A DNA stretch of 64,000 nt. Origin: an uncultured Roseicyclus sp. (GTDB taxonomy: Bacteria; Pseudomonadota; Alphaproteobacteria; Rhodobacterales; Rhodobacteraceae). The notes under the pieces were generated by a model, which was not told the origin of the DNA, ran no database searches, and worked only from the letters and a program-made list of their open reading frames with translations. A program made the position numbers and the translations under genes. The stretch covers positions 62,001 to 126,000 of the forward strand of contig CANMRT010000001.1 of NCBI GenBank assembly GCA_947500415.1, given 5' to 3'. Shown here piece after piece: positions 25,149-44,926 of the stretch (position 1 is the first letter of the stretch; every line of letters starts with the position of its first letter).

Positions 25149-27125
25149 TCAGACCAATTCAGCGTCCGACATCACTTCAACCAATGCAGGGCCATCCACG
25201 GCAAGCGCCTCGGCGATGGCGCTTTCCAGATCGCCCCTTTCCGTCACTTTGGTTCCGTGCGCGCCGCAGAGCCGTGCAAAGGCGGCAAAAGACGGGTTGA
25301 CCAAGGACGTCTCCCAAACTGGCCATTCGCCTGCGCGTTGTTCCTTGGAGATTTTCCCAAGCTCATCGTTGTGAAGAAGGATATGAGTAATATCCATCCC
25401 GTACTTCACGGCAGTCGTCAGCTCCATCGCGTATTGGCCAAAGCCGCCATCGCCAGAGATTGATATCACTTTACGTCCACGGAATTCCTCGAAATCCTGC
25501 GTCGCGGCCCATGCACCCATGGCAGCGGGAAGCGAGAACCCGATCGAGCCCAGATAGCCGGACATCATCACCCGCTGACCCTTGGTCTCGAAATAGCGCC
25601 CGAAGGAATAGGTGTTGTTACCCACATCCACGGCAATCAATGCGTCTTCAGGTACTAGCTTGGAAAGCGCATCAAAGATCGCCACAGAATGCACACCCTT
25701 TGCGCCTTCTTCCTTCAGTCGGTTCCTTTTCTCGTCACGCCACATCTGCCACCGTTCGGCCAGATCGCTAAGCTGATCCTCCGCATCCGCAGGCCGGGTT
25801 ATGCGTGGTGATATGGCCTCACAGAAGGCACCGATCTCACCCCAGACGGGCAGGGTGACAGGGTGAAACTTGCCCAACTGCATCCGTTCAAAGTCAACCT
25901 GGATCGTGGGTTTGCTGCGCTCGATCCCGGTGTGGTTTGAGAACGAAGCGCCGAGCACAATCTGCAAGTCGCACTCGTTCATGAACCAGCTGGCAATCGG
26001 CGTGCCGGAGCGGCCGAGGACACCTGCAGCGTTAGGATGGCTATCGGGGATCAGGCCCTTACCCTTGAACGTCGTCACCACAGGCGCACCCAAAGCTTCT
26101 GCCAAAGCGATAATCTGATCGTGCGCCTCCCATGCCCCGTGGCCAATGATGACCATTGGTCGTTTGGCTTGGCCAATCAGGTCCAGCGCCGCATCAACAT
26201 CCGCGTCCGACGGTTTGACAACCGGTCCGCTGATGCGCCCCTCCGGGCTCCCCGCATCGGCGTCGCTTGGCTGGGTTTGAACGTCGTCTGGGAAGATCAA
26301 GTTTGCCACATCACGTTCGATCAGCGCGGTCTTCATGGCGAGGGACACAAGTTCTGTATGATTGGACGTGGACAGCACGGGTTGCGAGAACTTGCTGACC
26401 GCTTCGAAAGCCGATTTCAAATCAATGTCCTGAAATGCCCCGGGCCCGAACACCTGCGTCTGAACCTGCCCCGTCAGCGCCAGCACCGGCGCACGGTCCA
26501 CCTTGGCGTCCCACATTCCGGTCAGAAGGTTTGTCGCCCCCGGTCCAGCAATCGCAAGGCAGGCCGCCGGCTTCCCGGTCAGCTTTCCGTATGCCGACGC
26601 CGCGAACGCCGCGGCGCCTTCATGGCGAATGCCGATATAGGACATCTCCCCATCGACCGTCCGTCGCCGGATCGCATCCGCCAGCCCGAGGTTGGAATGT
26701 CCCACCATTCCGAACACGCGCTTCAGGCCCCAGTTCACCATCGTCTCGGCCATCGCATCGGTGACCGTGCGCTCATGCTCGGGCTCTGGTTCAAGACCAA
26801 CAAAAACCTCACCATCTCGCACTTCCACAGGGTAGGTCGTCTGCCCGGTATCCTCATGCCCACCCGGAGGTGCCCCGGTAAGTGGGTCGAAGTCCCATCC
26901 ATGCCACGGGCAACGGATCCAACACTGGCCCTCTACACCCTTCTCAATAGTGCCCTCGCCCAATGGCCCGCCTTGATGCGGGCATCGGTTGTCCATCGCG
27001 GCCCATTGGCCGTCGAAGTGGGATAGGCACAGCGTCGTTGTCCGCGCGGTTACAGTCTTCACGCGCCCTTCAGGTAAGTCCGCAACCTGCCCAACCGAGA
27101 TCCAGTCCAGTGTTTCATCCGTCAT
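25149..27125 (-). CDS. Rieske [2Fe-2S] domain fused to a ThDP-dependent (pyruvate oxidase/acetolactate synthase-like) enzyme
   Basis: 658 residues. The N-terminal 110 residues are a Rieske domain with intact ligands: C48-P-H50 and C72-PW-H75 (RCPHQGGPLGEG, RCPWHGWDFDPLTG). The rest is a full three-domain ThDP enzyme: GIRHEGAAAFAASAYGKLTG with the catalytic Glu near 169, CLAIAGPGATNLLTGMWDA, a central domain, and the ThDP/Mg motif ISGDGGFGQYAMELTTAVKY with the later HN. Usual relatives have no Rieske part. Such enzymes decarboxylate 2-oxo acids; the Rieske cluster suggests electrons are passed to or from another protein. It is the last gene of a six-gene unit and overlaps the gene before it by 11 nt. 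Substrate unknown. Confidence 0.88.
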   Translation of the reverse strand: MTDETLDWISVGQVADLPEGRVKTVTARTTTLCLSHFDGQWAAMDNRCPHQGGPLGEGTIEKGVEGQCWIRCPWHGWDFDPLTGAPPGGHEDTGQTTYPVEVRDGEVFVGLEPEPEHERTVTDAMAETMVNWGLKRVFGMVGHSNLGLADAIRRRTVDGEMSYIGIRHEGAAAFAASAYGKLTGKPAACLAIAGPGATNLLTGMWDAKVDRAPVLALTGQVQTQVFGPGAFQDIDLKSAFEAVSKFSQPVLSTSNHTELVSLAMKTALIERDVANLIFPDDVQTQPSDADAGSPEGRISGPVVKPSDADVDAALDLIGQAKRPMVIIGHGAWEAHDQIIALAEALGAPVVTTFKGKGLIPDSHPNAAGVLGRSGTPIASWFMNECDLQIVLGASFSNHTGIERSKPTIQVDFERMQLGKFHPVTLPVWGEIGAFCEAISPRITRPADAEDQLSDLAERWQMWRDEKRNRLKEEGAKGVHSVAIFDALSKLVPEDALIAVDVGNNTYSFGRYFETKGQRVMMSGYLGSIGFSLPAAMGAWAATQDFEEFRGRKVISISGDGGFGQYAMELTTAVKYGMDITHILLHNDELGKISKEQRAGEWPVWETSLVNPSFAAFARLCGAHGTKVTERGDLESAIAEALAVDGPALVEVMSDAELV

Positions 27126-27396
27126 CGTGCGGCTCCTCGGTTGGGGTGAGTAGGTCGAAGATCTTTTGCAGGATCGTCAACGAAAGGAAGAAGGCGACAA
27201 CCCAGATCAGCAGCTCGTAAGGCGCGAAATCCGTTCCTCGCAGCCAGCGTGCCAAGAGCCCACCCTGTGGGCGCAATGCTTCAATACCGAATAGGCCGTC
27301 ACGATCCCAAAGGCGGAAATCCCAAAAGCGCGAGATGTAGTAGAACCATAGGCTGAGCACTGTCGTCAGTCCAAGGAACACGACGCGCCGGATCAT
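27115..27396 (-). CDS. Small two-helix membrane protein of the Rieske operon
   Basis: 93 residues with a membrane helix at each end: VVFLGLTTVLSLWFYYISRF (about 5-24) and LLIWVVAFFLSLTILQKIFD (about 62-81), with a charged middle (DFRLWDRDGLFGIEALRPQG). It overlaps the upstream gene by 4 nt and the Rieske-ThDP gene by 11 nt, so translation is coupled on both sides. No family recognised. It could anchor the soluble Rieske-ThDP protein to the membrane; that is inference from order. Confidence 0.75.
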   Translation of the reverse strand: MIRRVVFLGLTTVLSLWFYYISRFWDFRLWDRDGLFGIEALRPQGGLLARWLRGTDFAPYELLIWVVAFFLSLTILQKIFDLLTPTEEPHDDG

Positions 27397-28160
27397 TCCA
27401 CCACCGTTACAGTATCGGCGTCGACCGTCAGCACCAGCAAGTCACCATGGCGGGTGACGTCACCCTCAAGCGTTACGTAGAGGCCGACGTAATCCAACAG
27501 GGCAGGGGGCATCGTCTCGTCACCTACGCCCGCGATCATCAGAAACTCTGCCCCTTCCACGGGCTGAGTCGTCACGAAGACGGGCGGCACCCCACCCAGC
27601 AGACAGAGGTTCGCACAGGCCCGGTGGGAAATGCCGCGACCGGGACGCATGGCACCTGCTTCGCACTTTCCATCGCAAATCTCGCCCGTGATTTCCCATC
27701 GCCCTAGTGGTTCCGGTTCCGGAACATCGGGGATCACGCTTTGATCGTCTGCCGCGCGGAAGTTATTTCCGCCGTTCAGCTGCATCATATCCAGATCGCC
27801 CCGCTGAAGCAGGATGCCGGTCGCCTGCACGAGCTGACCTTCCAAAGCGAGCGCTCGGTCGACTGCGCCGTTCTTGCCTTGACCCGACAGCATCAACGTA
27901 TGGCCGACGGGGATTGCCTCCGTGCCTTGCGTCACGTGCAGAACTGGCGATGGTGTCATCTCCAGAACGCCGATAACGGTTTGCGGTCCAAAGTCGAACC
28001 GCAGCCGACCGTCACCCGGATCATCCTGGGTCGAGGCGATGGCATAGCCAAGCACACCAGCCCCGGCGAACAAAACCAGACAGGCGGCCAAAAGAAATAG
28101 TCGCAAGCCGGGCGGCACCGGCAAGTAGCCCACAAAGAACGGCTCATCGCGATTGCTCAT
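27393..28160 (-). CDS. Membrane-anchored protein of unknown function in the Rieske operon
   Basis: 255 residues: a short cytoplasmic start, one membrane helix (LFLLAACLVLFAGAGVLGYA, about 21-40) and a large beta-rich part likely outside the membrane. It contains four cysteines in a group (GEICDGKCEAGAMRPG and SHRACANLCLLGG) that could bind metal or form disulfides. Stretches such as HTLMLSGQGKNGAVDRALAL and LVQATGILLQRGDLDMMQLN look like repeated OB- or beta-barrel-type segments. Overlaps of 4 nt on both sides tie it to the operon. No family recognised. Confidence 0.78.
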   Translation of the reverse strand: MSNRDEPFFVGYLPVPPGLRLFLLAACLVLFAGAGVLGYAIASTQDDPGDGRLRFDFGPQTVIGVLEMTPSPVLHVTQGTEAIPVGHTLMLSGQGKNGAVDRALALEGQLVQATGILLQRGDLDMMQLNGGNNFRAADDQSVIPDVPEPEPLGRWEITGEICDGKCEAGAMRPGRGISHRACANLCLLGGVPPVFVTTQPVEGAEFLMIAGVGDETMPPALLDYVGLYVTLEGDVTRHGDLLVLTVDADTVTVVE

Positions 28161-29212
28161 GTCGTCGCCTCTTGTGGCGCAGGGGCAGGATCAACAGGTG
28201 TTCCAGGCGCGTTCGGCTCGGGATCAACGAAGATATCATCGCCCTCTAACTTCAGTCTATAGGTCGGAACCTTCTCGGTGAACGGAGCAGGCGAGCAGCC
28301 TGTGCGCACGTCGTATTGGAAGCCGTGCCAAGGGCAGGTCACGAGACAATCGATAATCCGACCCTCTCCCAATGGCCCGTTCTGATGTGCGCATGCGTTT
28401 GAGATCGCACTCAACTGCCCTTCATGCCGGAACACAGCCACGCGCTTTCCACTCGGCAATCGCACAACAAGCGCACGCCCCTCCTCAATGCTAGAGGCCT
28501 TGCCCACGTTCACCCAATCGAGGCCAACACCATTCGTGTCCACGCCTCGCTCTTTCAAAGCAGCCACAATGTGAAGTCCGGCGACCAGCAATGCACCGGC
28601 GCTGAAAATCACTGCCACCGTGTCGTTCTCACGCGATTGGAATGCCCCCAGCGCCACATGCCCCACCACTGCCGCATAGGCCGGGTAGATCAGGAAATGG
28701 ATCGCCTTCCACACCGGAGGCGTCAGGAACTTCAACCAAAAGTCGTGGCTTGTCGCGGCTAGGATCAGCAAGCAAAGCAACGCGAAAATGCCCAGTACTT
28801 CGAACGGGAACCCAAGCGCCTGGCCATAACTCGTGTTGGCGAACAGCACAGTCTCCCAACGCTCCGCCCCCTGGAAAAAGGCAAAGTACCAGCCGAGTAC
28901 AAAATACGCGTGGGTCAGCGCAACCGCCGCTGTCATCACCCCGAAGTGGCGCCTGTTATAGAGAAGCGCTAAGAAGCGTCGATCAAGGCGCGCGAGCGGT
29001 CCGATACATAGTATCACGGTCAGCATGACGAACGCACAGGTCCCGAAAGCACGCGCGTTGGCGATCGGTGGGTTCACAGGAAATTCGTGGTTCAGCGCGC
29101 CGGGTGCGACAGAGATAAAGAGCCAAAGAAACAATGCGACCCCCGCGAGCATGACCGCGTCATAGACCCACTTGCTATTATTCCACTGGACGGGGGTGTA
29201 CTTGACGCTCAT
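28157..29212 (-). CDS. Ferric-reductase-like haem membrane domain fused to a Rieske [2Fe-2S] domain
   Basis: 351 residues. The first 220 residues hold about six membrane helices in the ferric reductase/YedZ (MsrQ) pattern, with paired histidines H89 and H101 (NRRHFGVMTAAVALTHAYFV) and H172 and H185 (AIHFLIYPAYAAVVGHVALG), suited to bind two haems b. Residues 230-330 form a Rieske domain with C274-A-H276 and C293-PW-H296 (NACAHQNGPLGEG, TCPWHGFQYDVRTG). The protein therefore could carry electrons between a soluble iron-sulfur partner and the membrane quinone or periplasm. It lies in the middle of the six-gene operon with 4-nt overlaps on both sides. The fused arrangement is uncommon. Confidence 0.85.
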   Translation of the reverse strand: MSVKYTPVQWNNSKWVYDAVMLAGVALFLWLFISVAPGALNHEFPVNPPIANARAFGTCAFVMLTVILCIGPLARLDRRFLALLYNRRHFGVMTAAVALTHAYFVLGWYFAFFQGAERWETVLFANTSYGQALGFPFEVLGIFALLCLLILAATSHDFWLKFLTPPVWKAIHFLIYPAYAAVVGHVALGAFQSRENDTVAVIFSAGALLVAGLHIVAALKERGVDTNGVGLDWVNVGKASSIEEGRALVVRLPSGKRVAVFRHEGQLSAISNACAHQNGPLGEGRIIDCLVTCPWHGFQYDVRTGCSPAPFTEKVPTYRLKLEGDDIFVDPEPNAPGTPVDPAPAPQEATT

Positions 29213-29586
29213 TCGCTTGCCTCCACTGGCGGTGACAGGCGGGTTGGCGCGGCATCAGCGGGCCAAGTTTGACGGATGGTGAAAGCCGTCAACAACGTGA
29301 CCACCACGATCGCTGCCATCAAAACGGCGGCCACACCATGCGCGCGGCGGGGCGGGGCATAGCGCGCGGCATGATCGGCTTGGCCCGTTTCTTCTCGCAT
29401 CCAGCGCCACAGCACCAATGGCCAGATCAACAGGATGGCCGGGATCAACAGCGGGCGGAACGCATATGCTCCCCTTGCATCTTCATCAATCCGGTCCATG
29501 CCGATTGTGAGGAACGCTAACGCCACGAAGGCCCCGATCAAGCAATAGGTTTGCGCAATCGATATGAGAGCCGCGGCTGCGCTCAT
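29209..29586 (-). CDS. Small three-helix membrane protein of the Rieske operon
   Basis: 125 residues from ATG 29586, which forms an ATGA overlap with the stop of the upstream gene; a longer frame exists but lies inside that gene. Three membrane helices are seen: AQTYCLIGAFVALAFLTIGM, PLLIPAILLIWPLVLWRWMR and HGVAAVLMAAIVVVTLLTAF. The WPLVLWRWM stretch recalls small membrane proteins next to cytochrome or ferric-reductase genes, but no family is assigned. It probably partners the haem-Rieske membrane protein encoded next. Confidence 0.75.
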   Translation of the reverse strand: MSAAAALISIAQTYCLIGAFVALAFLTIGMDRIDEDARGAYAFRPLLIPAILLIWPLVLWRWMREETGQADHAARYAPPRRAHGVAAVLMAAIVVVTLLTAFTIRQTWPADAAPTRLSPPVEASE

Positions 29587-31193
29587 GTCATCCCGCCGTA
29601 GGCCACGCCCGACAAGTCGGCCATTTCGCGCTTCCACGTGGTCAGGTCATCCTGGTTGAATTGCGACAGATGATCATGCCCGCAGGCCCGCGCCATCACT
29701 TGCATCAACTCAACAGACGCATCGAAGAAGTTCGCCAAGCGCTGGGCAGATTTCTCAACCACCAAACGGCTTACAAGGTTCGGTTTCTGGGTGGCGATTC
29801 CGACAGGGCAATTGTTGGTGTGACACGCGCGCATGGCGAGGCACCCAATCGCTTGCATAGCCGAGTTTGAAACGGCAATCGCATCAGCCCCCAACGCCAT
29901 CGCTTTGATGAAATCGACTGGCTTTCGCAGGCCGCCGGTGATCACCAGCGAAACGTCACCGCGCCCAGACCTGTCCAGATGCCGCCGTGCCCGAGCCAGC
30001 GCTGGGATCGTCGGCACGCTAATATTGTCGCGGAACAGGATCGGAGCTGCGCCGGTGCCGCCACCACGTCCGTCGAGGATGATGTAATCGACGCCAACCT
30101 CCAGCGCCGCGTCGATATCCTTCTCTATATGTTGCGCGCTAAGTTTGTAGCCGATGGGGATGCCGCCTGTCCGGTCGCGCACTTCATCCGCGAAGTCCTT
30201 GATCTGCGACGGATCAGTCCATTCCGGGAACCGCGCCGGTGAGATTGCGTCTTCACCAGCCTCAATCCCGCGCACCTCGGCGATCTTGCCCTTGTTCTTG
30301 GCGCCAGGCAGGTGGCCGCCCGTGCCGGTCTTCGCGCCTTGCCCGCCTTTGAAGTGGAACGCTTGCACCCGGTCGAGTTTGTCCCAATCGAACCCGAACC
30401 GAGCCGAGGCGAGCTCATAGAAGTACCGTGAATTGGCTTCTTGCTCTTCGGGCAACATACCACCTTCGCCAGAACAGATACCTGTTCCAGCCATCTCGGC
30501 TCCACGGGCCAGTGCGATTTTTGCAGGCTCTGAAAGCGCCCCAAACGACATGTCGGATACAAACAGCGGGATTTTTAACCGTAGTGGCTTCTGCGCGTTT
30601 GGGCCGATCACCACGTCCGTGCCAACCGGATCGTCGTCGAGCAACGGCGGCTTATGCAACTGCGCAGTCAGCATCTGGATGTCATCCCAACTGGGAAGCT
30701 CATCGCGTGGTACACCCATCGAGTCGACGACGCCGTGATGACCCGTCTTGGACAGACCGTCCCGTGCATATTGTTGGATTAACCCGTTGTGCGGCTCTTC
30801 GGCCGTTCCGTGGGAAGTATCGGCATAGAGGCCTAGATACGCGTCTCGGTTGAATGGCTGAGGATTGTCCTTTGCCCAAGCGGCGATCTCATCCGCATCA
30901 ACAAGTACCTTGTCACCGTCCAACCAGGACTTGAACTTAGGCAGCTTTTCTTCATTCGCGTATTCGGACACGCCGGTATCCAGCCGATAGTCCCAATCAT
31001 GCACGCCACAAATCAGGTTTTTGCCTCGCACGAACCCGTCGGACATCAGCGCCCCACGATGCAGGCACCGTCCGTAAAACACCGCTACTTCGTCGTCGAA
31101 ACGCACGACGACCAGATCGACCTCTCCAACCAAGGCATATTGTGGTTCGCGGTCTGGCAACTCGCTAAGGCGGGCCACGGTGGTGTTGGTCAT
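29583..31193 (-). CDS. Rieske [2Fe-2S] domain fused to FMN-binding glutamate-synthase-like domain
   Basis: 536 residues from ATG 31193 (AAGGGA upstream). Residues about 1-100 are a Rieske domain with C43-L-H45 and C62-GV-H65 (YGRCLHRGALMSDG, ICGVHDWDYRLDTG). The rest is the FMN/[3Fe-4S] barrel of glutamate synthase: FVSDMSFGALSEPAKIALAR, FHFKGGQGAKTGTGGHLPGA, DGRGGGTGAAP and the cysteine cluster ACHTNNCPVGIATQKP. The glutaminase domain of true GltB is missing, so it is an FMN oxidoreductase of unknown reaction rather than glutamate synthase. It is the first gene of the six-gene operon. The 128-bp gap upstream should hold the promoter. Confidence 0.88.
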   Translation of the reverse strand: MTNTTVARLSELPDREPQYALVGEVDLVVVRFDDEVAVFYGRCLHRGALMSDGFVRGKNLICGVHDWDYRLDTGVSEYANEEKLPKFKSWLDGDKVLVDADEIAAWAKDNPQPFNRDAYLGLYADTSHGTAEEPHNGLIQQYARDGLSKTGHHGVVDSMGVPRDELPSWDDIQMLTAQLHKPPLLDDDPVGTDVVIGPNAQKPLRLKIPLFVSDMSFGALSEPAKIALARGAEMAGTGICSGEGGMLPEEQEANSRYFYELASARFGFDWDKLDRVQAFHFKGGQGAKTGTGGHLPGAKNKGKIAEVRGIEAGEDAISPARFPEWTDPSQIKDFADEVRDRTGGIPIGYKLSAQHIEKDIDAALEVGVDYIILDGRGGGTGAAPILFRDNISVPTIPALARARRHLDRSGRGDVSLVITGGLRKPVDFIKAMALGADAIAVSNSAMQAIGCLAMRACHTNNCPVGIATQKPNLVSRLVVEKSAQRLANFFDASVELMQVMARACGHDHLSQFNQDDLTTWKREMADLSGVAYGGMT

Positions 31194-31257
31194 GCTGGTT
31201 CCCTTCGGTGAACTGGCGAAAGGACGTGCGGTGCAATCCTTGCCTGCATCCTGCATG

Positions 31258-31271
31258 GCCCGCGCGCGGGC
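31258..31271. repeat. GC palindrome between the TRAP permease gene and the Rieske operon
   Basis: GCCCGCGCGCGGGC is a perfect 14-bp palindrome in the 128-bp gap. It has no T-run on either side, so it is at best a weak pause or attenuation element. It could also be an operator. No regulator is assigned. Confidence 0.3.
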
Positions 31272-31321
31272 GTCTACGGTTTAGCGCGCGGATTTTGTTC
31301 ACATCTTTCCGTTACGGGCCC

Positions 31322-32719
31322 TCACGCGAGGCTGGGCAGCCAAAGAACAATCGCAGGGAAGGCCACCAAAAGGGCGATTGTGATTGCGTCGGCGATGAAG
31401 AACGGGGTCACGCCACGGAACACGTCCTGCACGCTGAGGTCATCGCGCACACCGGCCACAACAAAGCAGTTCAAGCCTATGGGCGGTGTGATCAGACAGA
31501 ACTCGGCCATTTTCACTACCAAGATCCCGAACCACACGGCGCACATAGGACCTGACATGCCAAAGGTGCTGTCGGCGGCGGATACATCCAGCCCACCGTT
31601 GAGCGCCATGACCGCCGGGAAGACAACCGGCAAGGTAAGAAGCAACATCCCGATGGCGTCCATGAACATGCCCAAAACGGCATAGGCCAGAAGGATGCAC
31701 ACAAGGATCAACATTGGTGACATCTCGAGTGCGGTGATCCAATCGGAGAACACGCCCGGCAGATCGGCAAATCCCAGGAAGCGGACGTAAATGAGGACAC
31801 CCCAGATAATCGAGAAGATCATCACCGAAAGCTTCGCTGTTTCGATCAATGCATCCTTTAATTCAGGCCAACGCATGCCACGGTAAAGTGCCATGCAGAA
31901 GACGATAAATGCACCGATGGCTCCACCTTCAGTCGGTGTGCCCCAGGCATCACCGAAAGGATTGTAGACAAAGAAGATGATGATCACGACGACGGCCACG
32001 ATGGGCAATGCAGGTGGTAGCGACGCAAAACGCTCCCGCCAGGTAAAGCCAGTAACAGGCGGGCCGAACCCTTTGATCGTGAGTGCCATCACTACGATAA
32101 GAACGGCGTAGACGAAGGCCGAAAATACCCCGGGGATAAAGCCTGCCAACAGCAGCATGCCTACGTCCTGCTCCACAATGATTGCATAGATCACAAGGAT
32201 GGCGGATGGCGGGATCAGCGAGGCGAGAGTTCCGCCTGCAGCAACGACGCCCGCCGCAAAGCGCTTGTCGTAGCCGACCTTGAGCATTTCAGGAATCGCG
32301 ATGCGGGCGAAAACAGCGGCCGTGGCCACCGACGCCCCTGACACGGCCGCAAAACCTGCGGTCGAGAAAACCGTCGATACGGCAAGGCCGCCGGGAACCC
32401 AGGCGATCCAGCGTTTCGCGGCCTCAAACAGCGCGCGCGTTAGCCCCGCATGGTAAGCAAGGAAGCCAATAAGAATGAACGTCGGGATCAGGCTCAGCGC
32501 CTGATTTGCGACTTTTGCGTGGGGCACCTGACCGGCAGTTTTGACCGCCACTTCCAGTGCCCACCAAATGTCTTCAACGCCGAAATCGCGCCGAGCCCAA
32601 TTGATCAGAAACAGCCCGATTAGGCCGGCGATGGCCGTGGCATATGCCACGCGCATGCCAAGGAAGACCATCACCAGCATCCCGCCGGTAACCCAAAGGC
32701 CGATTGTGGTACTGTCCAT
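31322..32719 (-). CDS. dctM: TRAP transporter large permease (DctM family)
   Basis: 465 residues with about 12 membrane helices. DctM is the ion-coupled transport subunit of tripartite carboxylate transporters. Family stretches: GGMLVMVFLGMRVAYATAIA, VPGGLAVSTVFSTAGFAAVS with SGASVATAAVFARIAIPEM, GGTLASLIPPSAILVIYAII, and VVKMAEFCLITPPIGLNCFV. It directly follows dctQ (1-nt overlap) and dctP. The transported compound is not known; the Rieske operon 128 bp downstream in the same direction could act on it. Confidence 0.94.
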   Translation of the reverse strand: MDSTTIGLWVTGGMLVMVFLGMRVAYATAIAGLIGLFLINWARRDFGVEDIWWALEVAVKTAGQVPHAKVANQALSLIPTFILIGFLAYHAGLTRALFEAAKRWIAWVPGGLAVSTVFSTAGFAAVSGASVATAAVFARIAIPEMLKVGYDKRFAAGVVAAGGTLASLIPPSAILVIYAIIVEQDVGMLLLAGFIPGVFSAFVYAVLIVVMALTIKGFGPPVTGFTWRERFASLPPALPIVAVVVIIIFFVYNPFGDAWGTPTEGGAIGAFIVFCMALYRGMRWPELKDALIETAKLSVMIFSIIWGVLIYVRFLGFADLPGVFSDWITALEMSPMLILVCILLAYAVLGMFMDAIGMLLLTLPVVFPAVMALNGGLDVSAADSTFGMSGPMCAVWFGILVVKMAEFCLITPPIGLNCFVVAGVRDDLSVQDVFRGVTPFFIADAITIALLVAFPAIVLWLPSLA

Positions 32720-33348
32720 TAGTCCCGCCCCGCCAGTTGCTCAGCCTCAGCTGCAGCTTGTTCCTCAATGGATTGCGTAAGCGGAACCGCGGCGGGACGT
32801 TCCAATCCTAAGAACAGGGCGCGTGCATAGGCCCACACTTGCAGGGCGGCGCGCAGGACAAGCACCACGAAGGCCAGCACCACAGCAAGTTTGGCCGGCC
32901 AGATCGGCAGGTTGATGTCGATGGAGCTGTCGCGGCTCCAATTTGGGCGAGAGAAATCAAAGCTACGGTCGAAGTGTGCCCAAGCGCCCCAAAGCAGTAG
33001 CGCGATCAACAGGAAAATGAAGACGGTCATGACCAACTCCACTGCCCAAAGTGCGCGGCCCCGAAACAGACCTATGAAGATGTCCATACGGATGTGGCTG
33101 CCACTACGTTGCACATACGAGATGCCGAAGATCGCAATGAACGGCATCGCCATCTCAATCCAATCCACGTAGCCGCGCAGTGGCGATCCGAAGAATTCGC
33201 GCCCGCCAACCGAGAAGACGGCAAGAAACATAAGGCCGAAGGTGAAAAGCCCGCTGACAACTACCATCGCCGTTTCGACCGGCAAAAGCATGCGGTCAAA
33301 GCGGCTGACAAGGCTGTCATCCGCAAGCACCGAGGAGGCACTGGACAT
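32719..33348 (-). CDS. dctQ: TRAP transporter small permease (DctQ family)
   Basis: 209 residues with four membrane helices (VSGLFTFGLMFLAVFSVGGR, LWAVELVMTVFIFLLIALLL among them) and the DctQ sequence around MAMPFIAIFGISYVQRSGSH followed by IRMDIF. The extra length over the usual 160-180 residues is an N-terminal and a charged C-terminal tail. It lies between dctP (63 bp upstream) and dctM (overlapping). Confidence 0.9.
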   Translation of the reverse strand: MSSASSVLADDSLVSRFDRMLLPVETAMVVVSGLFTFGLMFLAVFSVGGREFFGSPLRGYVDWIEMAMPFIAIFGISYVQRSGSHIRMDIFIGLFRGRALWAVELVMTVFIFLLIALLLWGAWAHFDRSFDFSRPNWSRDSSIDINLPIWPAKLAVVLAFVVLVLRAALQVWAYARALFLGLERPAAVPLTQSIEEQAAAEAEQLAGRD

Positions 33349-33411
33349 AACGAATGTATCCCGAGGTTGATGAGACGGCTCCGACCCAGCTGGCCAGAGC
33401 CGTCGAAGGCT

Positions 33412-34422
33412 TTAGTTGCCCTGTGCTTCGGCGAGGGTTGTCAGCACCAGGTCGTAGAGTTCCTGAGCCGGCAGTCCCTGAGCCGCCATTTCCTCAATCC
33501 ACGCCGCATGGAGCGGGGTGGCAGCTTCGCGGAAGGCATCCAGTTCGGACTGCGCCATTTCGACCCGCTGAACGCTGTTCTCCTCAAGGACACTATCCCA
33601 CCGCTCGATCAATTCGGCGTAGTTTGCCAGATAGTGAGCAATGGACTCTTCTACCGCGCCATCAAGGGCCGCACGATGTTCGTCTGACAGATCTTCGTAG
33701 GCGTCGATGTTAACTACCACGGGGCAGTTCACGGTGCCGGGGTTGAGGTTCGCAGTCCACCAATCGGCTTCGTTGATCGTGCCGAAGGAAAGGTGTGCGT
33801 GCTGGGCGAAGGCGACCGTGTCGACCACGCCACCTTGCATCGCCTGATAGGCTTCGGTTGCGGTCACCGAGGTCGGCACGCCGCCCACGGTTTCAAACGC
33901 GCGGCCGAGGCCACCGGTGGCGCGCACCCGCATGCCGTCGAAATCGGCGAGCGTTGCTGGTGGTTCACCAGTACCGACAAGGTTGTATTGTGGCATTGGC
34001 GACGTCATCAGCAGCATCGCGTTCCACTGCGCCATTTCCTCTGCCACGGCGGGGTGGTTGTAGACGGCTGTGGCGACAGCGACTTCTTCCTCCAGCGTGT
34101 TCACGCCAAGGAACGGAAGCTCCAAAACGGTGATCGCGCGGTTCTTGTCGGCGTGGTAACCGGCGCAGAACTGAGCCATTTCAAACGCGCCAATGGAGAT
34201 GCCATCGAGGTTTTCGCGGTTCGAGCTGAGACCACCGTAAGAGATGTTCAGTGTGAATTCACCGCCGGTGCGCTCGTCGAGCAGTTCAGCCAGACGTTCC
34301 ACATGTTCGGTGAAGGCGCGACGCTGGCCCCAAAGCGAGACGTTCCATTCGACCGCGAAGGCCTCAGAACCGATTGTAATGGCAAGAGTTGCGAGAGCCG
34401 TACGGCTCAGAAGCTTTTGCAT
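33412..34422 (-). CDS. dctP: TRAP transporter substrate-binding protein (DctP family)
   Basis: 336 residues from ATG 34422, giving the signal peptide MQKLLSRTALATLAITIGSE; an in-frame ATG seven codons earlier is less likely. The periplasmic binding protein fold shows WNVSLWGQRRAFTEHVERLA, FEMAQFCAGYHADKNRA, FDGMRVRATGGLGRAFETVG and ATEAYQAMQGGVVDTVAFAQ; the Arg in MRVRATGG is the residue that usually pairs with a substrate carboxylate. It opens the dctP-Q-M string, with the DctDB regulators just upstream in the same direction. Confidence 0.92.
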   Translation of the reverse strand: MQKLLSRTALATLAITIGSEAFAVEWNVSLWGQRRAFTEHVERLAELLDERTGGEFTLNISYGGLSSNRENLDGISIGAFEMAQFCAGYHADKNRAITVLELPFLGVNTLEEEVAVATAVYNHPAVAEEMAQWNAMLLMTSPMPQYNLVGTGEPPATLADFDGMRVRATGGLGRAFETVGGVPTSVTATEAYQAMQGGVVDTVAFAQHAHLSFGTINEADWWTANLNPGTVNCPVVVNIDAYEDLSDEHRAALDGAVEESIAHYLANYAELIERWDSVLEENSVQRVEMAQSELDAFREAATPLHAAWIEEMAAQGLPAQELYDLVLTTLAEAQGN

Positions 34423-34542
34423 GATGTCCTCCCTAGATGTCATGCGATGTCATCGTGACGCGAAGTATTCGGCCAATTAAAGGCTCTGTTAATGAAGAAA
34501 TCCGCGCCGCGTCAGCAGATTGCCCTGCGGATTTACGCAGAC

Positions 34543-35883
34543 TTATAGCAGGGCGTCCTTATCAAGGCCAAGCTTAACGATCTTTTCGTTCAATGTACGT
34601 CGCCCAATCCCAAGGTCGTCTGCAACATCATCCATGCGTCCACCATGGGTCGTGATTGCGGTAGAAATCATCTCGCGTTCAAGTTCGGCAACGGCAGTGC
34701 GCAGGTTTTTGGACAGTGTTTCTTGCGCAGCGTTTGGTGCGATTGCCAGCGCGATGGAACCTCCGCCCTTTCGGGCTGCCAATAGGCTTCGTTCCGCTAC
34801 TGTTCGCAATTCACGAACGTTGCCCGGCCAGTCATGGGCCAAAGCTGCAGCAAGATCTGCGGTTGTAAGCTCAGGGGGCGCGATACCGTAGACTCGCGAT
34901 GAGGCATCCATGAAATGAGCAAGCAACGAGTGCAAATCATCGCGTCTTTCCCGAAGCGGGGGAAGGTCCAGCGTAAACGTATTCAGTCGGTACAGCAGGT
35001 CTTCTCGGAAACGCCCTTCTGCCACCGCAGCGTCAACGTCTTCATTGGTGGCAGAAATCACGCGTACCTGCACGGGAATTGGATCGCTCGCCCCCTCCTG
35101 CATGACCACGCCATCTTCCAATACTCTCAGAAACCTAGCTTGTACTTCAGGTGGGCAAGCACAGACTTCATCCAGAAACAATGTGCCGCCATTGGCCTGA
35201 AGCACACGCCCATCGGCTCCACCAAAAATACCAAACATATCGGCCACAAAGGTTTCAGCCGAGAGAAGCGCACAATTTACTGCCACATATGGACGGTCGG
35301 CCAATGGACCCAGGTCGTGTAGTGCCCGGGCCACCAGATCTTTACCGGTACCCGTTTCGCCAAGGATCAATACCGGTGCCGTGACGTCTGCAAGATCAAT
35401 TACGTCCGCACGCATCTTCCGCGCCGCATCGGAATTTCCTACAAGAACACGGTCCAATCCCGACATCTGCAAGAGGCGCAGTCGCAGCCGCTCATTACTT
35501 GCCCGCATGCGTGTGCGCTCCGCCGCATGGCGCAAAATGCGGAGAAGACGGCGCGGTTCGTAGGGTTTCTCGACAAAGGAATAGGCGCCGCCCTGCATGG
35601 CTTCGACCGCCATCGGGATGTCACCGTGGGCCGTTACCAAGACCATTGGAACCGCACGTTCGGGCGGCAAAGCTCTTAGCAATTCCAAACCCGTCATGCC
35701 CGGCATTCGCACGTCAGAAAGGATCACATCGGGATCAAACTCGGAAATCGCATCAAACGCTCGATCGGCCCGTGGGATGTCTTTGACCCGCCAACCGTCA
35801 ACTTCCAGCAAATCCACCACCGATTGACGCATAGCGCGGTCATCCTCAACCACGAGCACACGCAAAGGCGCGTCCGGCTTCAT
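34543..35883 (-). CDS. dctD: DctD-like response regulator with altered sigma-54 contact loop
   Basis: 446 residues: receiver domain (phosphorylation Asp57 in DVILSDVRMPG), AAA+ domain with Walker A GETGTGKD at 175-182 and Walker B LFLDE at 235-239, and a Fis-type helix-turn-helix at the end (ISTAITTHGGRMDDVADDLG). In active sigma-54 activators the loop before the AAA+ beta-strand reads GAFTGA. Here it is GIFGGA (218-223), and the preceding E-L-F-G-H-x-x-G segment is shortened to DMFG. Whether it can still open sigma-54 promoters is uncertain. It overlaps dctB by 4 nt and lies upstream of the TRAP genes it should regulate. Confidence 0.85.
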   Translation of the reverse strand: MKPDAPLRVLVVEDDRAMRQSVVDLLEVDGWRVKDIPRADRAFDAISEFDPDVILSDVRMPGMTGLELLRALPPERAVPMVLVTAHGDIPMAVEAMQGGAYSFVEKPYEPRRLLRILRHAAERTRMRASNERLRLRLLQMSGLDRVLVGNSDAARKMRADVIDLADVTAPVLILGETGTGKDLVARALHDLGPLADRPYVAVNCALLSAETFVADMFGIFGGADGRVLQANGGTLFLDEVCACPPEVQARFLRVLEDGVVMQEGASDPIPVQVRVISATNEDVDAAVAEGRFREDLLYRLNTFTLDLPPLRERRDDLHSLLAHFMDASSRVYGIAPPELTTADLAAALAHDWPGNVRELRTVAERSLLAARKGGGSIALAIAPNAAQETLSKNLRTAVAELEREMISTAITTHGGRMDDVADDLGIGRRTLNEKIVKLGLDKDALL

Positions 35884-37628
35884 TCGGCCGCTACCTTTTG
35901 TGAATTGTTGGCAGGCAGTACCATCCGGAAAATGGCACCCGAATTGCCATCTCCGTTTCGGGCCTCTAGCCGTCCACCATGGTCGTCCATGATGCCGGAT
36001 GAAATCGCCAGGCCTAACCCCATGCCTTGACCGCTAGCCCGAGTTGTTACGAAGGGTTCACGTAAATCCACCAGCGTCGCCTCCCCCAACCCGTGGCCAT
36101 TGTCGACAACCTCGATCCATACGTTGCCACTGTCTTCACCATAGCGAATGTCGAGCATGGGTACTTCAACCTCCTCCATCGCATCCACGGCGTTTCGCAT
36201 GACATTGGTTAGAACCTGTTCCAGGCGTAGGCGTGAGCCGCGCACCAAAAGCGGATGTCTTGGCGTTGAATGATTGACGTGCAGTTCGAGTGCTTCAAAA
36301 CTTGGAACCATCAACTCCAATACCGCTTCCACGCTCTTGCGCAGGTCAAGGTCTTCGAACGGCTCTTCGCGAGAGCGTGCGAAAAACTTCAGCTGCTTAG
36401 TAATTCCTTCCATCCGATCAACTAGGCCGCCGATCGTTCGGGTTAGCCCACTTTCGTCGTTCTTGATCTCATGAGCCGCCAGTTGGTTTCGCATTGCCGC
36501 AATAGGTTGGCCAAGCTCATGGGTGACCGATGCGGAAAGTTGGCCTAGCGCCGCCAAACGGCTCGCGCGTTCTAGTTCGCCGCGTGTTTCATCTAGCCGC
36601 TGTTCGGTACGCTGGCGCTCCTCAATTTCGCGGGCCAAGGCGAGGTTCGCGCGACGTAGTTGCGCCTCTTCTTCTTCTGATCGTTGAAGCGCGCGACCCA
36701 AACGTCGGCCGCGCTGGTATTGCGCCAGCAACAGCGCAAGAGCTGTGACAACGAAGAAGGCACCGGTTGCCAGCCAAGCCCTAAGAACTGCTGTGTCATT
36801 CCGCCCAAGATAGTGAAGCTGCCAAGCATGCGGCAAGTCCGCACCAACGACGTGCAAACGCCTGGCGCCATCAATGCGCGCCCATGCGGTGTTGGGATCT
36901 GCGTCCCAATCCAGCGGATCGAGCGGTTGCCCGGCAAACTGACGCGCCTCGTCGATCCGTAGCCGCTCTGGCTCAGTCAGAGCATCAAGCGTGCCGTAGC
37001 GCCAAGCCGGTTCCGAGGACAGCAACACGACATCGTGGTGGTCAGTCAAAAACACCTGCTCTCCCGCATCGCGCCAAGCTTGTTCGAATGTAGCCAGGTT
37101 CAGTTTCAAGGCCACGACGCCAAGCACATTGCCTGCTTCATCCCTCACAGGGTCCGCAATGAAATATCCAGGCAAGCCGGTCGTTGTGCCGATGCCGTAA
37201 AAGGTTCCGGTTTCGCCTTCTAGCGCACTCTGGAAGTATGGGCGGAAGTTATAGTTTTGCCCTACGAAGCTGCCAGCTTGTTCGGCGTTGGAAGCTGCAA
37301 TGGTAAGTCCGTCCGGCTGCATCAGGTATATTGCGTCCAGACCCGCTGCTTCTGCGAAATCCGCCAGCCGTGTATTCAGCGCGCCCAGCGTGCCGTCCTC
37401 CAACGCTTCAATCACGAACGGGTCGACGGCAAGCACTTGTGTGAGGTGTTCGAACCTTTCCAGCTCAGACAAAACGGTGTTGTGGTAAAGCGACATCCTC
37501 GCTTCGGCGCGCTGCAACTCCTGTGCCGTGAAATAGCGATATGTGGCGACCCAAGCAGCGGCCGCCACGCATAACGCAACGAATGCCGACACGAGTAGTG
37601 TTGTACGGCCCTTGCTGACTCTGGTCAT
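35880..37628 (-). CDS. dctB: DctB-like sensor histidine kinase
   Basis: About 582 residues from ATG 37628; the frame is open to 37712 but the extra 28 residues look non-coding. Layout: membrane helix (TTLLVSAFVALCVAAAAWVA), periplasmic double-PAS sensor region (AAGLDAIYLMQPDGLTIAAS, NYNFRPYFQSALEGETGTFY, as in DctB), second helix (ATGAFFVVTALALLLAQYQR), coiled coil, then kinase core with H-box SASVTHELGQPIAAMRNQLA, N-box LTNVMRNAVDAME and GMGLGLAISSGIMDDHGG. The ligand is probably the compound carried by the adjacent TRAP system. It is coupled to dctD by a 4-nt overlap. Confidence 0.9.
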   Translation of the reverse strand: MTRVSKGRTTLLVSAFVALCVAAAAWVATYRYFTAQELQRAEARMSLYHNTVLSELERFEHLTQVLAVDPFVIEALEDGTLGALNTRLADFAEAAGLDAIYLMQPDGLTIAASNAEQAGSFVGQNYNFRPYFQSALEGETGTFYGIGTTTGLPGYFIADPVRDEAGNVLGVVALKLNLATFEQAWRDAGEQVFLTDHHDVVLLSSEPAWRYGTLDALTEPERLRIDEARQFAGQPLDPLDWDADPNTAWARIDGARRLHVVGADLPHAWQLHYLGRNDTAVLRAWLATGAFFVVTALALLLAQYQRGRRLGRALQRSEEEEAQLRRANLALAREIEERQRTEQRLDETRGELERASRLAALGQLSASVTHELGQPIAAMRNQLAAHEIKNDESGLTRTIGGLVDRMEGITKQLKFFARSREEPFEDLDLRKSVEAVLELMVPSFEALELHVNHSTPRHPLLVRGSRLRLEQVLTNVMRNAVDAMEEVEVPMLDIRYGEDSGNVWIEVVDNGHGLGEATLVDLREPFVTTRASGQGMGLGLAISSGIMDDHGGRLEARNGDGNSGAIFRMVLPANNSQKVAAE

Positions 37629-37762
37629 TCCGCTGTTCGTCTGGTCCACTGTTGCGGCCCTTTGCTCCTGAATGTTTGGGGTAGCAAAATTGATTTGCAA
37701 AAGACACCGCATCGCGAGCCACTAGCCATGACGCTTGGTCAGTAAAGCACGGAGGGCACCGA

Positions 37763-43234: not shown

Positions 43235-44926
43235 ATGTCTAACGCAATGAATGGAGCCGATGCCTTGGTAGCCATGCTCAAAGCACACGGCGTTCGGCAT
43301 ATCTTCGGTCTTTGCGGTGACACCTCGCTTCCGTTTTATGATTCCATGCGATCCCACGGCAGCGACATAACGCATGTCCTGACTCGAGATGAACGATCTG
43401 CCACCTACATGGCCGATGCCTACGCCCGCGTGACCGGGCGGCCCGGCGTTGCAGAGGGCCCGTCGGGAGGAGGTGCCACATACATCCTGCCGGGGCTGAT
43501 CGAGGCCAGTGAATCGAGTTATGCGGTGTTAGGGATCACAACCGACATCTCGGTCGGAACCTATGGCAAATACCCCCTGACCGAAGTCGACCAAAATGCG
43601 TTGATGGCGCCGGTGACCAAATGGAATCAGGTCATCGTGCAAGCCGCGCACATCCCCCGCATGGTGCGCACGGCCTTCCGCGCGATGACGACGGGGCGTT
43701 CTGGCGCGGCGCATCTCGGCCTGCCTTACGACATTCAATACGACCCCGTGGATCCATCAGACATTTGGGCCGATCCCAAGCATCAGTCCTTTCCAGCCTA
43801 CCGTCAGGCCCCGGAACCCGGTGCCGCCGAGGCAGCGGTTGAGGCGATCCTGTCCGCGAATTCGCCTCTGATTGTTTGCGGCGGCGGCGTGGTGATTGCT
43901 GGTGCCATGGACGAATTGGCCCGTATGGCAGAACGGTTGGACATTCCTGTTGCAACCTCGATATCTGGCCAAGGGTCACTTGCCGATACGCACCCCCAAT
44001 CGCTTGGCGTCGTCGGGTCAAACGGTGGCACCGACCAGACTTGGGAAGCGATGGAGGCCGCTGATCTGGTGATCTTCATGGGGTGTCGGGCAGGTTCCAC
44101 CACCACGGCGCGGTGGGAGGCTCCGAAGCCCGGCGCTCGCATCGCTCATTTTGACAGCGACCCAATGGTTATTGGGGCGAATTATCCCACCGAAGTGGGT
44201 GTTGTTGGCGATCTGCGGCTGTCGTTAGCTGCGGTGAACGCAGTGCTAGACGCGCAGGGGCAGGGCGCATCAACGTTTGGCGGTGCGAAAGCCGTGGCCG
44301 ACATCAAGGCGCGCAAGTTTGAGCGTTTCGAATGCCTCGCCCAAAGCGATGAAGCTCCGATCCGCCCCGAGCGCGTCGTCGCCACCCTCAACCGTATCCT
44401 CCCCGAGGGCGCCACGGTTGTCTCGGACCCCGGCACAAGTTGCCCGTACTTCTCAGCTTACTATCAACAGACACAGCCGGGTCGTTTCTTCATCACAAAC
44501 CGAGCTCATGGCGCGCTAGGATATTCCCTCTCCGCCTCGCTGGGCGCGTGGTTTGGGCGACCGGGATCAAAGGTTGTGGGGCTTATGGGCGACGGGTCAT
44601 TCGGGTTCACATGTGGCGAACTTGAAACCGTTTCTCGCGCGGGGGCCGACATCACCTATGTCGTGTTCTCCAACAGCAATTTCGGATGGATCAAGGCCAG
44701 CCAAATGGCCGACAAAGGCGCGCGCTACTACAACGTCGATTTCAACCGCGTCGACCATGCGGCCGTTGCCACCGCCTATGGCGTCAAGTCTTGGAAGGTT
44801 GAGGACCCGCAGATGCTGGAGCGGACGTTGGCCGAAGCGATCGCAACGAACGGCCCAACCCTTGTTGATGTTGTCACTCAACCGCTGGAAGAAGCTGCAG
44901 CCCCCGTGCGCCGCTGGATGGGCTAA
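43235..44926 (+). CDS. ThDP-dependent acetolactate synthase-like enzyme
   Basis: 563 residues with the usual three domains. Pyr domain: GADALVAMLKAHGVRHIFGL and VLTRDERSATYMADAYARVT with the catalytic Glu. Central domain: PLIVCGGGVVIAGAMDELAR. PP domain: GLMGDGSFGFTCGELETVSR and FSNSNFGWIKA as the ThDP/Mg motif. It is not IlvB of branched-chain synthesis by context: it is controlled by a GntR regulator in a catabolic block and has no small-subunit gene. It probably decarboxylates a 2-oxo acid formed in this pathway. Its end overlaps the LysR gene's end by 4 nt, tail to tail. Confidence 0.87.
   Translation: MSNAMNGADALVAMLKAHGVRHIFGLCGDTSLPFYDSMRSHGSDITHVLTRDERSATYMADAYARVTGRPGVAEGPSGGGATYILPGLIEASESSYAVLGITTDISVGTYGKYPLTEVDQNALMAPVTKWNQVIVQAAHIPRMVRTAFRAMTTGRSGAAHLGLPYDIQYDPVDPSDIWADPKHQSFPAYRQAPEPGAAEAAVEAILSANSPLIVCGGGVVIAGAMDELARMAERLDIPVATSISGQGSLADTHPQSLGVVGSNGGTDQTWEAMEAADLVIFMGCRAGSTTTARWEAPKPGARIAHFDSDPMVIGANYPTEVGVVGDLRLSLAAVNAVLDAQGQGASTFGGAKAVADIKARKFERFECLAQSDEAPIRPERVVATLNRILPEGATVVSDPGTSCPYFSAYYQQTQPGRFFITNRAHGALGYSLSASLGAWFGRPGSKVVGLMGDGSFGFTCGELETVSRAGADITYVVFSNSNFGWIKASQMADKGARYYNVDFNRVDHAAVATAYGVKSWKVEDPQMLERTLAEAIATNGPTLVDVVTQPLEEAAAPVRRWMG

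Follow-up and report, generated by a model that had tools for sequence, protein, structure and literature searches.

A conserved but patchily distributed gene set with three Rieske fusion proteins: a candidate modular electron-transfer system

Glutamate-synthase-type barrels receive electrons from ferredoxin through a [3Fe-4S] cluster, which in glutamate synthase is held by three cysteines, and the thiamine diphosphate (ThDP) enzyme PoxB reaches quinone by a C-terminal membrane-binding peptide. In the MsrPQ system, MsrQ is the quinone-binding subunit, and distant MsrQ relatives are transmembrane electron carriers, according to PMC8238504. An arginine in place of the first haem histidine marks the YedZ/STEAP proteins, most of whose short forms probably bind only one haem, and Rieske is listed among the domains fused to ferric reductase domain (FRD) proteins (PMC3591440). 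Here we describe six genes, A to F, in a 64,000-nt stretch of DNA from an uncultured Roseicyclus sp. (hereafter referred to as the window), in which relatives of these proteins each carry a Rieske [2Fe-2S] domain. The window comes from a single genome, and all operon coordinates are positions within it. The gene set is real, conserved and patchily spread. Searches of open-licence literature returned no description that we recognised of a Rieske-ThDP fusion or of the six-gene set, in agreement with the original prediction, made from the sequence of the window, whose author knew of no described system with this composition. Two of the architectures are known already: the fusion type of C, because PMC3591440 names Rieske-FRD fusions, and the CDGSH-Glu_synthase arrangement of a sister of A, which is in print (PMC5859297).

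The operon and its three Rieske fusions

Genes A to F occupy positions 25149-31193 of the minus strand, and their successive overlaps of 4, 4, 4, 4 and 11 nt confirm the predicted run of six leftward, overlapping genes. Their order and products are as follows (aa, amino acids).

29583..31193, minus strand: gene A, 536 aa, N-terminal Rieske [2Fe-2S] domain and glutamate-synthase-type flavin mononucleotide (FMN) barrel
29209..29586, minus strand: gene B, 125 aa, membrane protein, roughly three hydrophobic stretches
28157..29212, minus strand: gene C, 351 aa, YedZ/MsrQ-type haem membrane domain and C-terminal Rieske domain
27393..28160, minus strand: gene D, 255 aa, N-terminal transmembrane helix and extracytoplasmic part
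27115..27396, minus strand: gene E, 93 aa, small membrane protein with conserved SRFW and WLRGT motifs
25149..27125, minus strand: gene F, 658 aa, N-terminal Rieske domain and complete ThDP enzyme nearest PoxB

The longest frames of A and B begin further upstream, at 31256 and 29637. We chose the shorter starts, which yield the 4-nt overlap and from which, in a comparison beginning at these starts, many relatives align at residue 1.

The whole genome contains six Rieske domains at an E-value of 0.001, three of which are those of this operon. By inspection, two of the others lie within frames resembling ring-hydroxylating oxygenases, and the last, in a 197-aa frame, was taken for a bc1 subunit. 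The ligands, two Cys and two His in each operon protein (C43/H45/C62/H65 of A, C274/H276/C293/H296 of C and C48/H50/C72/H75 of F), are intact as predicted; they are invariant in 37/37 A, 100/100 C and 39/39 F aligned sequences, the window included, although some genomes entered twice through two collections and the sequences are not all independent. A tree of the Rieske domains has one clade for each of A, C and F (support 0.998, 0.956 and 0.903, respectively), which therefore represent three old fusions. A recent triplication of one Rieske domain was not supported, given the three clades, though C and F pair at 0.92 in this tree of a short domain with one outgroup.

By Pfam, A contains Rieske (1.8e-12) and Glu_synthase (3.2e-88), and F contains Rieske (4.4e-17) and all three TPP_enzyme domains; the predicted fusions to an FMN glutamate-synthase-like barrel and to a full ThDP enzyme were thus borne out. 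The nearest relatives of the A barrel in the PDB are glutamate synthase large subunits (E 6e-32). A retains the cysteines of the C-x5-C-x4-C pattern (C451, C457 and C462), as well as Q285 and K288 of QGAK. In one genome the match to gene A is broken into two pieces (G132:C1:2589310-2591136), perhaps a disrupted copy.

A sister of A, hereafter referred to as CDGSH-A, was found in loci L122-L129 and L186-L191. Its catalytic part is about 70% identical to that of A, and two CDGSH-type motifs replace the Rieske domain in all eight proteins read (L122-L129); by Pfam, A itself has no CDGSH domain. The catalytic-part tree separates Rieske-A from CDGSH-A with a support of 0.999, and two proteins whose N-termini were unrecognised by the motif test (L181 and L185) group with the Rieske side. 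The accessible part of PMC5859297 makes no mention of the Rieske form.

In F, H143, E169, K591 and E595 are invariant among the aligned sequences. Lys591, present in 39/39 F sequences and in five plasmid F proteins (four haloarchaeal and one mycobacterial), occupies the position of the active-site residue Phe465 of PoxB, as counted on the F-PoxB alignment. Because this invariant lysine stands where PoxB has Phe465, an acidic 2-oxo acid may be offered as a guess for the substrate. The window encodes another ThDP enzyme at 43235-44926, which is 28% identical to F and has no Rieske match.

Gene C matched Ferric_reduct (4.7e-10; 40 bits against a cut-off of 28) and Rieske (2.6e-16). Its H101, H172 and H185 are invariant and align with histidines of MsrQ-type proteins, and an R87/R88 pair lies near the position of the first haem His in NOX enzymes; two FRD proteins were compared in this alignment, one of them adjoining an Oxidored_molyb gene. 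The ferric-reductase-like domain of the original prediction is therefore present, but its dihaem character was not confirmed: the pattern of an Arg and three His is that of YedZ/MsrQ. The model of C has six helices, five of which were recovered by a hydropathy scan. Since the loop charges, read by eye on this model, follow the positive-inside rule, the C-terminal Rieske domain is probably in the cytosol.

Three small membrane proteins had been predicted between the fusions. This description suits B, which gave a sub-threshold Pfam match to DUF2339 (18.8 bits; cut-off, 33.6), and E, but not D, which has one N-terminal transmembrane helix followed by a confidently modelled extracytoplasmic part. 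In the AlphaFold2 model of D (mean predicted local distance difference test score of 91 over the whole chain), this part consists of two beta-rich halves that weakly resemble the oligonucleotide/oligosaccharide-binding (OB) fold. Residues C162, D163, C166, M171, H179, C182 and C186 of D are invariant in 62/62 sequences of less than 85% mutual identity. Neither D nor E matched a Pfam family; a sequence search of the PDB with D returned nothing meaningful, and a fold search gave weak OB-type matches only (best E 1e-3, TM-score 0.21). Distant versions of the second half of D occur as small proteins in genomes G476 (E 1e-8) and G539 (E 5e-7). The D-like gene of G539 is next but one to a gene taken by inspection for a member of the SCO family, and a ThDP gene without a Rieske domain (L147:10391-11998) is nearby. 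L146:7493-8032 and L147:8770-9195 encode small proteins, probably secreted and without a Pfam family, in which a D-x2-C ... H-x2-C-x3-C motif resembles that in the second half of D; they may represent a periplasmic domain for metal binding or redox that is as yet undescribed.

A possible modular redox system and the distribution of its parts

Sequence comparison leads us to propose, at slightly less than an even chance, that the genes encode a plug-in redox system, with the Rieske domains as connectors, A as the hub and B-C-D-E as the membrane tie in Alphaproteobacteria. A would be an FMN/[3Fe-4S] enzyme in the cytosol, with the fold of glutamate synthase, onto which a ferredoxin-like partner has been fused as a Rieske domain, so that the Rieske or double CDGSH domain would act as the built-in ferredoxin of the barrel. 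F would be a cytosolic PoxB-type 2-oxo-acid decarboxylase/oxidase and the electron source, its electrons leaving through its own Rieske domain, which would replace tail-mediated membrane docking. The cytosolic Rieske domain of C may collect electrons from, or feed them to, A and F, and the membrane haem(s) of C may relay them to quinone, to D as a periplasmic Cys/His protein, or to both; the quinone link is plausible because C is related to MsrQ. The observations on which this proposal rests are the domain content, the intact ligands, the gene overlap, the co-occurrence described below, the presence of conserved A and F proteins in archaea and the Rieske/CDGSH swap; what we infer is that the three Rieske domains exchange electrons, in which direction and with what acceptor, and which cofactors and substrates are involved. 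A bolder version, which we hold to be doubtful, is a new kind of electron wiring in which A and F, soluble enzymes with unrelated folds, and the membrane haem protein recognise each other via matched Rieske domains; A and F would be an electrically coupled pair that has spread between Bacteria and Archaea, partly by plasmid, and become hooked to the membrane and to D, a new periplasmic redox protein, in Alphaproteobacteria.

Among 195 genomes of the order (87 genera), full-length C was found in 21, Rieske-A in 22 and F in 17. A and C share 17 genomes, F and A share 16, and C and F share 15, which supports the earlier claim that the three Rieske proteins belong together; in the single F genome without Rieske-A (G101), CDGSH-A adjoins F. 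With phylogeny ignored, the Fisher p values are 1e-16 for A-C and 1e-17 for F-A and, at the genus level, 4e-7 for A-C (A in 8 genera, C in 11 and both in 7 of the 87) and 6e-8 for F-A. None of the 21 C genomes has CDGSH-A (the form without Rieske), which is not significant alone (p 0.37).

Gene arrangement was examined in 95 loci, 80 of them retained from 369 C relatives and 15 chosen for holding A, C, D or F; a few genomes appear twice (L114 and L135, for example, look alike), and short contigs hide genes in some. The 80 C loci have a match to B in 80/80, to D in 79/80 (the exception ends at a contig edge) and to E in 76/80. These results indicate that B-C-D-E is a unit, to which A and F are attached as modules. 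Over all 95 loci, A, C and F occur together in 29, A and C in 11, C and F in 12, C alone in 34, A and F in 4, A alone in 4 and F alone in 1. The original prediction had envisaged one membrane-bound six-gene system and had proposed a search for a conserved set and order. B-C-D-E is indeed kept as a unit, but only 29/86 C loci have both A and F beside C, and A and F also occur apart from the core. A single fixed complex was rejected, because the modules separate in many loci. In G030, G058 and G168, A and F adjoin each other at a site apart from the core; C is elsewhere in the latter two genomes, and G030 has no full-length C. At some core-only loci (L048, L052, L101, L136 and others, mostly Tateyamaria), B-C-D-E is followed by glycosyltransferase-like and O-acetylhomoserine-sulfhydrylase-like genes. 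The latter gene is present in 16/34 core-only loci, 12 of the 16 being titled Tateyamaria, so that the association is largely that of one lineage.

In a wider sample of 398 genomes of the phylum, D was matched in 8 (two of them weakly) and F in 4, while 48 have A, CDGSH-A or a more remote relative; D and F are confined to the class, and A also occurs outside it. In family f38, of another class, full-length Rieske-type A was found in five of the 25 loci taken, in addition to cut or split copies.

A collection of plasmids contains five full-length F relatives (54-60% identity), four from haloarchaea and one from Mycobacteroides abscessus subsp. bolletii. At a looser limit 194 plasmid records match F; among the 25 best of these, the 20 others are at most 34% identical, and their matches start at residue 102 or beyond, save two that start at 49 and 67. 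In three of the four haloarchaeal cases, full-length A (62-64%) and F (58-60%) are on the same plasmid, at a distance of 1.4 kb in Salinirubellus, 4 kb in Halorarius and 17 kb in Halorubrum. The haloarchaeal A and F retain their ligands, and F retains K591. From these sequences, the joint presence of A and F relatives in some haloarchaea points to an undescribed electron-transfer system. Two Rhizobium plasmids carry B, C and D (C 50-52% identical), with a ThDP enzyme that lacks a Rieske domain (L196:4054-5685) and an OpgC-domain gene a few genes away.

Several of the distributional data weigh against the proposed plug-in system. Four of the 21 C genomes are without Rieske-A and six without F, and 4/195 genomes (G031, G110, G135 and G150) have A but lack both F and C. 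In 34/86 C loci the core has no A or F beside it. Family f38 has A, but the D search of the phylum sample found nothing there (C was not searched). The co-occurrence tests are uncorrected for phylogeny. Finally, the haloarchaeal A-F plasmid stretches contain no match to B, C, D or E beyond the Rieske part; with no core nearby, the membrane haem is therefore not required for the A-F pair, which suggests that the two enzymes can dispense with C.

In an alternative that is in our view unlikely, A and F are a redox couple by themselves: F would oxidise a 2-oxo acid and pass low-potential electrons straight to A for reductive use, in the manner of ferredoxin-dependent glutamate synthase, and B-C-D-E would be an overflow or back-up donor. 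Such a couple would fit the finding that F is never without A or CDGSH-A in the 195 genomes, the off-core adjacency of A and F in three genomes, their sharing of haloarchaeal plasmids, and the QGAK residues and three cysteines retained by A. It fits less well with the 6/22 genomes that have A without F, and with an A protein that has no glutaminase domain and in which the GltS stretch SPPPHHD is aligned with SPARFPEW.

Neighbouring genes

Upstream of A in the window are transporter genes of the tripartite ATP-independent periplasmic (TRAP) type, which are outside the conserved set, followed by two regulatory genes.

31322-32719, minus strand: TRAP transporter DctM
32719-33348, minus strand: TRAP transporter DctQ
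33412-34443, minus strand: TRAP transporter DctP
34543-35883, minus strand: sigma-54-type response regulator, DctD-like
35880-37712, minus strand: sensor kinase with Cache domain, DctB-like

Sigma-54 control of the operon was not adopted: 13 site matches were found where 7 were expected, none of them between A and the response-regulator gene (31194-34542). In the Roseobacter-group loci L042, L050, L077 and L133, the set lies between a tripartite tricarboxylate transporter (TTT) and a tungstate-type-looking ABC transporter, and L077 and L133 have fumarase-type genes as well. A glutaryl-CoA-dehydrogenase-like gene was dropped as a partner because it occurs in too few loci, L061 and L116 (a 28% match in L145 was not counted). 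MsrPQ was likewise not used as a partner of A. L118 has Oxidored_molyb and FRD genes beside A, with a fasciclin gene between; L119 and L120 share its genus and gene clusters, and the three may therefore be one event. In L122, of the same genus, an FRD gene is near CDGSH-A and F.

As judged from these and the following genes, the neighbours appear to point to carboxylates in some lineages and to electrophile or metal stress in others. One explanation that we consider quite unlikely is that A is a reductase in a module against electrophile, quinone or metal stress, to which the other genes supply electrons and ion balance. Stress-type neighbours of A or CDGSH-A, which were chosen by eye and then scanned, include proteins of the glutathione S-transferase family, taken for glutathionyl-hydroquinone reductase (L127, L128, L178 and L186), pirin (L178 and L186), nitroreductase (L178, L180 and L186) and, in L178, an old-yellow-enzyme-type protein and MsrA. 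The haloarchaeal stretches have annotated genes for merA (two), arsenic (one), DsrE (three), pirin (one) and peroxiredoxin (one). In addition, a Na+/H+ exchanger is present in 19/48 A-bearing loci as compared with 0/47 A-less loci, and antiporters of other families lie by F in Halorarius (a Na+/H+ exchanger, directly after it) and near F in Mycobacteroides. Against such a module, TRAP or TTT transporters and fumarase-type genes neighbour the window operon and many Roseobacter-group loci. Moreover, a common ancestry of the alphaproteobacterial and haloarchaeal antiporters was rejected, as they are only about 30% identical over 88 aa, and the alphaproteobacterial exchanger had no match in the window's genome (a search made without a control).

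The carboxylate-related neighbours lend themselves to a catabolic route, likewise improbable in our estimation, in which A would oxidise an acidic amino acid to a 2-oxo acid, F would decarboxylate the product and the electrons of both would reach quinone via C; this is the original prediction with a substrate added. The TRAP and DctB/DctD-like genes recur beside the operon in G241 (L148), the former by similarity and the latter as matches to the response regulator and kinase after F (39% and 34%, respectively). Among the 86 C loci, TctA is matched in 13 (one at 31%), TctC in 12 and a fumarase-type (tartrate-dehydratase-like) gene in 8, and the lysine at the PoxB Phe465 position would also suit an acidic substrate. 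On the other hand, neighbours vary by lineage, most C loci have no transporter or fumarase-type gene of this kind, the fumarase-type gene is in 0/29 A+C+F loci within the stretches examined, and nearly half of the core-only loci have the O-acetylhomoserine-sulfhydrylase-like gene instead. Growth on organic acids finds support only in the transporter genes that adjoin the set in some lineages.

That independently useful genes travel together by chance or gene transfer would agree with the patchy distribution, the plasmid copies and the occurrence of each module alone, but is very improbable in view of the genus-level associations, with phylogeny ignored, and the recurrence of the A-F link in archaea.

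Should the plug-in system prove true, it would include a ThDP enzyme that passes electrons to a built-in Rieske domain and not to quinone, oxygen or ferredoxin, would give a function to an orphan family of Rieske- or CDGSH-fused glutamate-synthase-like proteins, and would exemplify the natural swapping of [2Fe-2S] modules on one catalytic core. As both bacteria and haloarchaea have the A-F pair, biochemistry on one pair would be informative for many genomes.

Comparison with known systems

The large subunit of glutamate synthase and the ferredoxin-dependent GltS (1EA0, 2VDC, 7MFM and 1LLW) have the FMN barrel and the C-x5-C-x4-C cysteines in common with A. By Pfam, a Rieske domain occupies the N-terminal position of A, where no glutaminase domain is present, and A scores 125 bits against an NCBIfam cut-off of 1047 for glutamate synthase. 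The CDGSH/Glu_synthase protein (PMC5859297) shares the catalytic part of A and has two CDGSH motifs where A has one Rieske domain.

The nearest PDB relative of F is PoxB, the ubiquinone-dependent pyruvate dehydrogenase (3EY9/3EYA), which aligns with residues 119-653 (E 5e-67). The likeness extends to the complete ThDP fold, the catalytic Glu169 and the GDG motif. In contrast to PoxB, F has an added N-terminal Rieske domain; it ends in DAELV, 5 residues beyond the aligned stretch, and since the alignment reaches residue 653 of 658, the C-terminal membrane-binding tail of PoxB is absent from F. Its score of 388 bits is far under the NCBIfam cut-off of 742 for pyruvate oxidase.

With MsrPQ/YedYZ and other MsrQ-like FRD systems (PF01794), C shares the membrane domain, the Arg in place of the first haem His and the three His. 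An MsrP-type molybdoenzyme was not apparent, as Pfam gave no Oxidored_molyb match in the six products of the operon or in the one neighbouring protein to either side of them, and D, unlike the components of MsrPQ, matches no family. At 33.8 bits, C is under the NCBIfam MsrQ cut-off of 130, and where these systems have an NAD(P)H or flavin module, it carries a Rieske domain.

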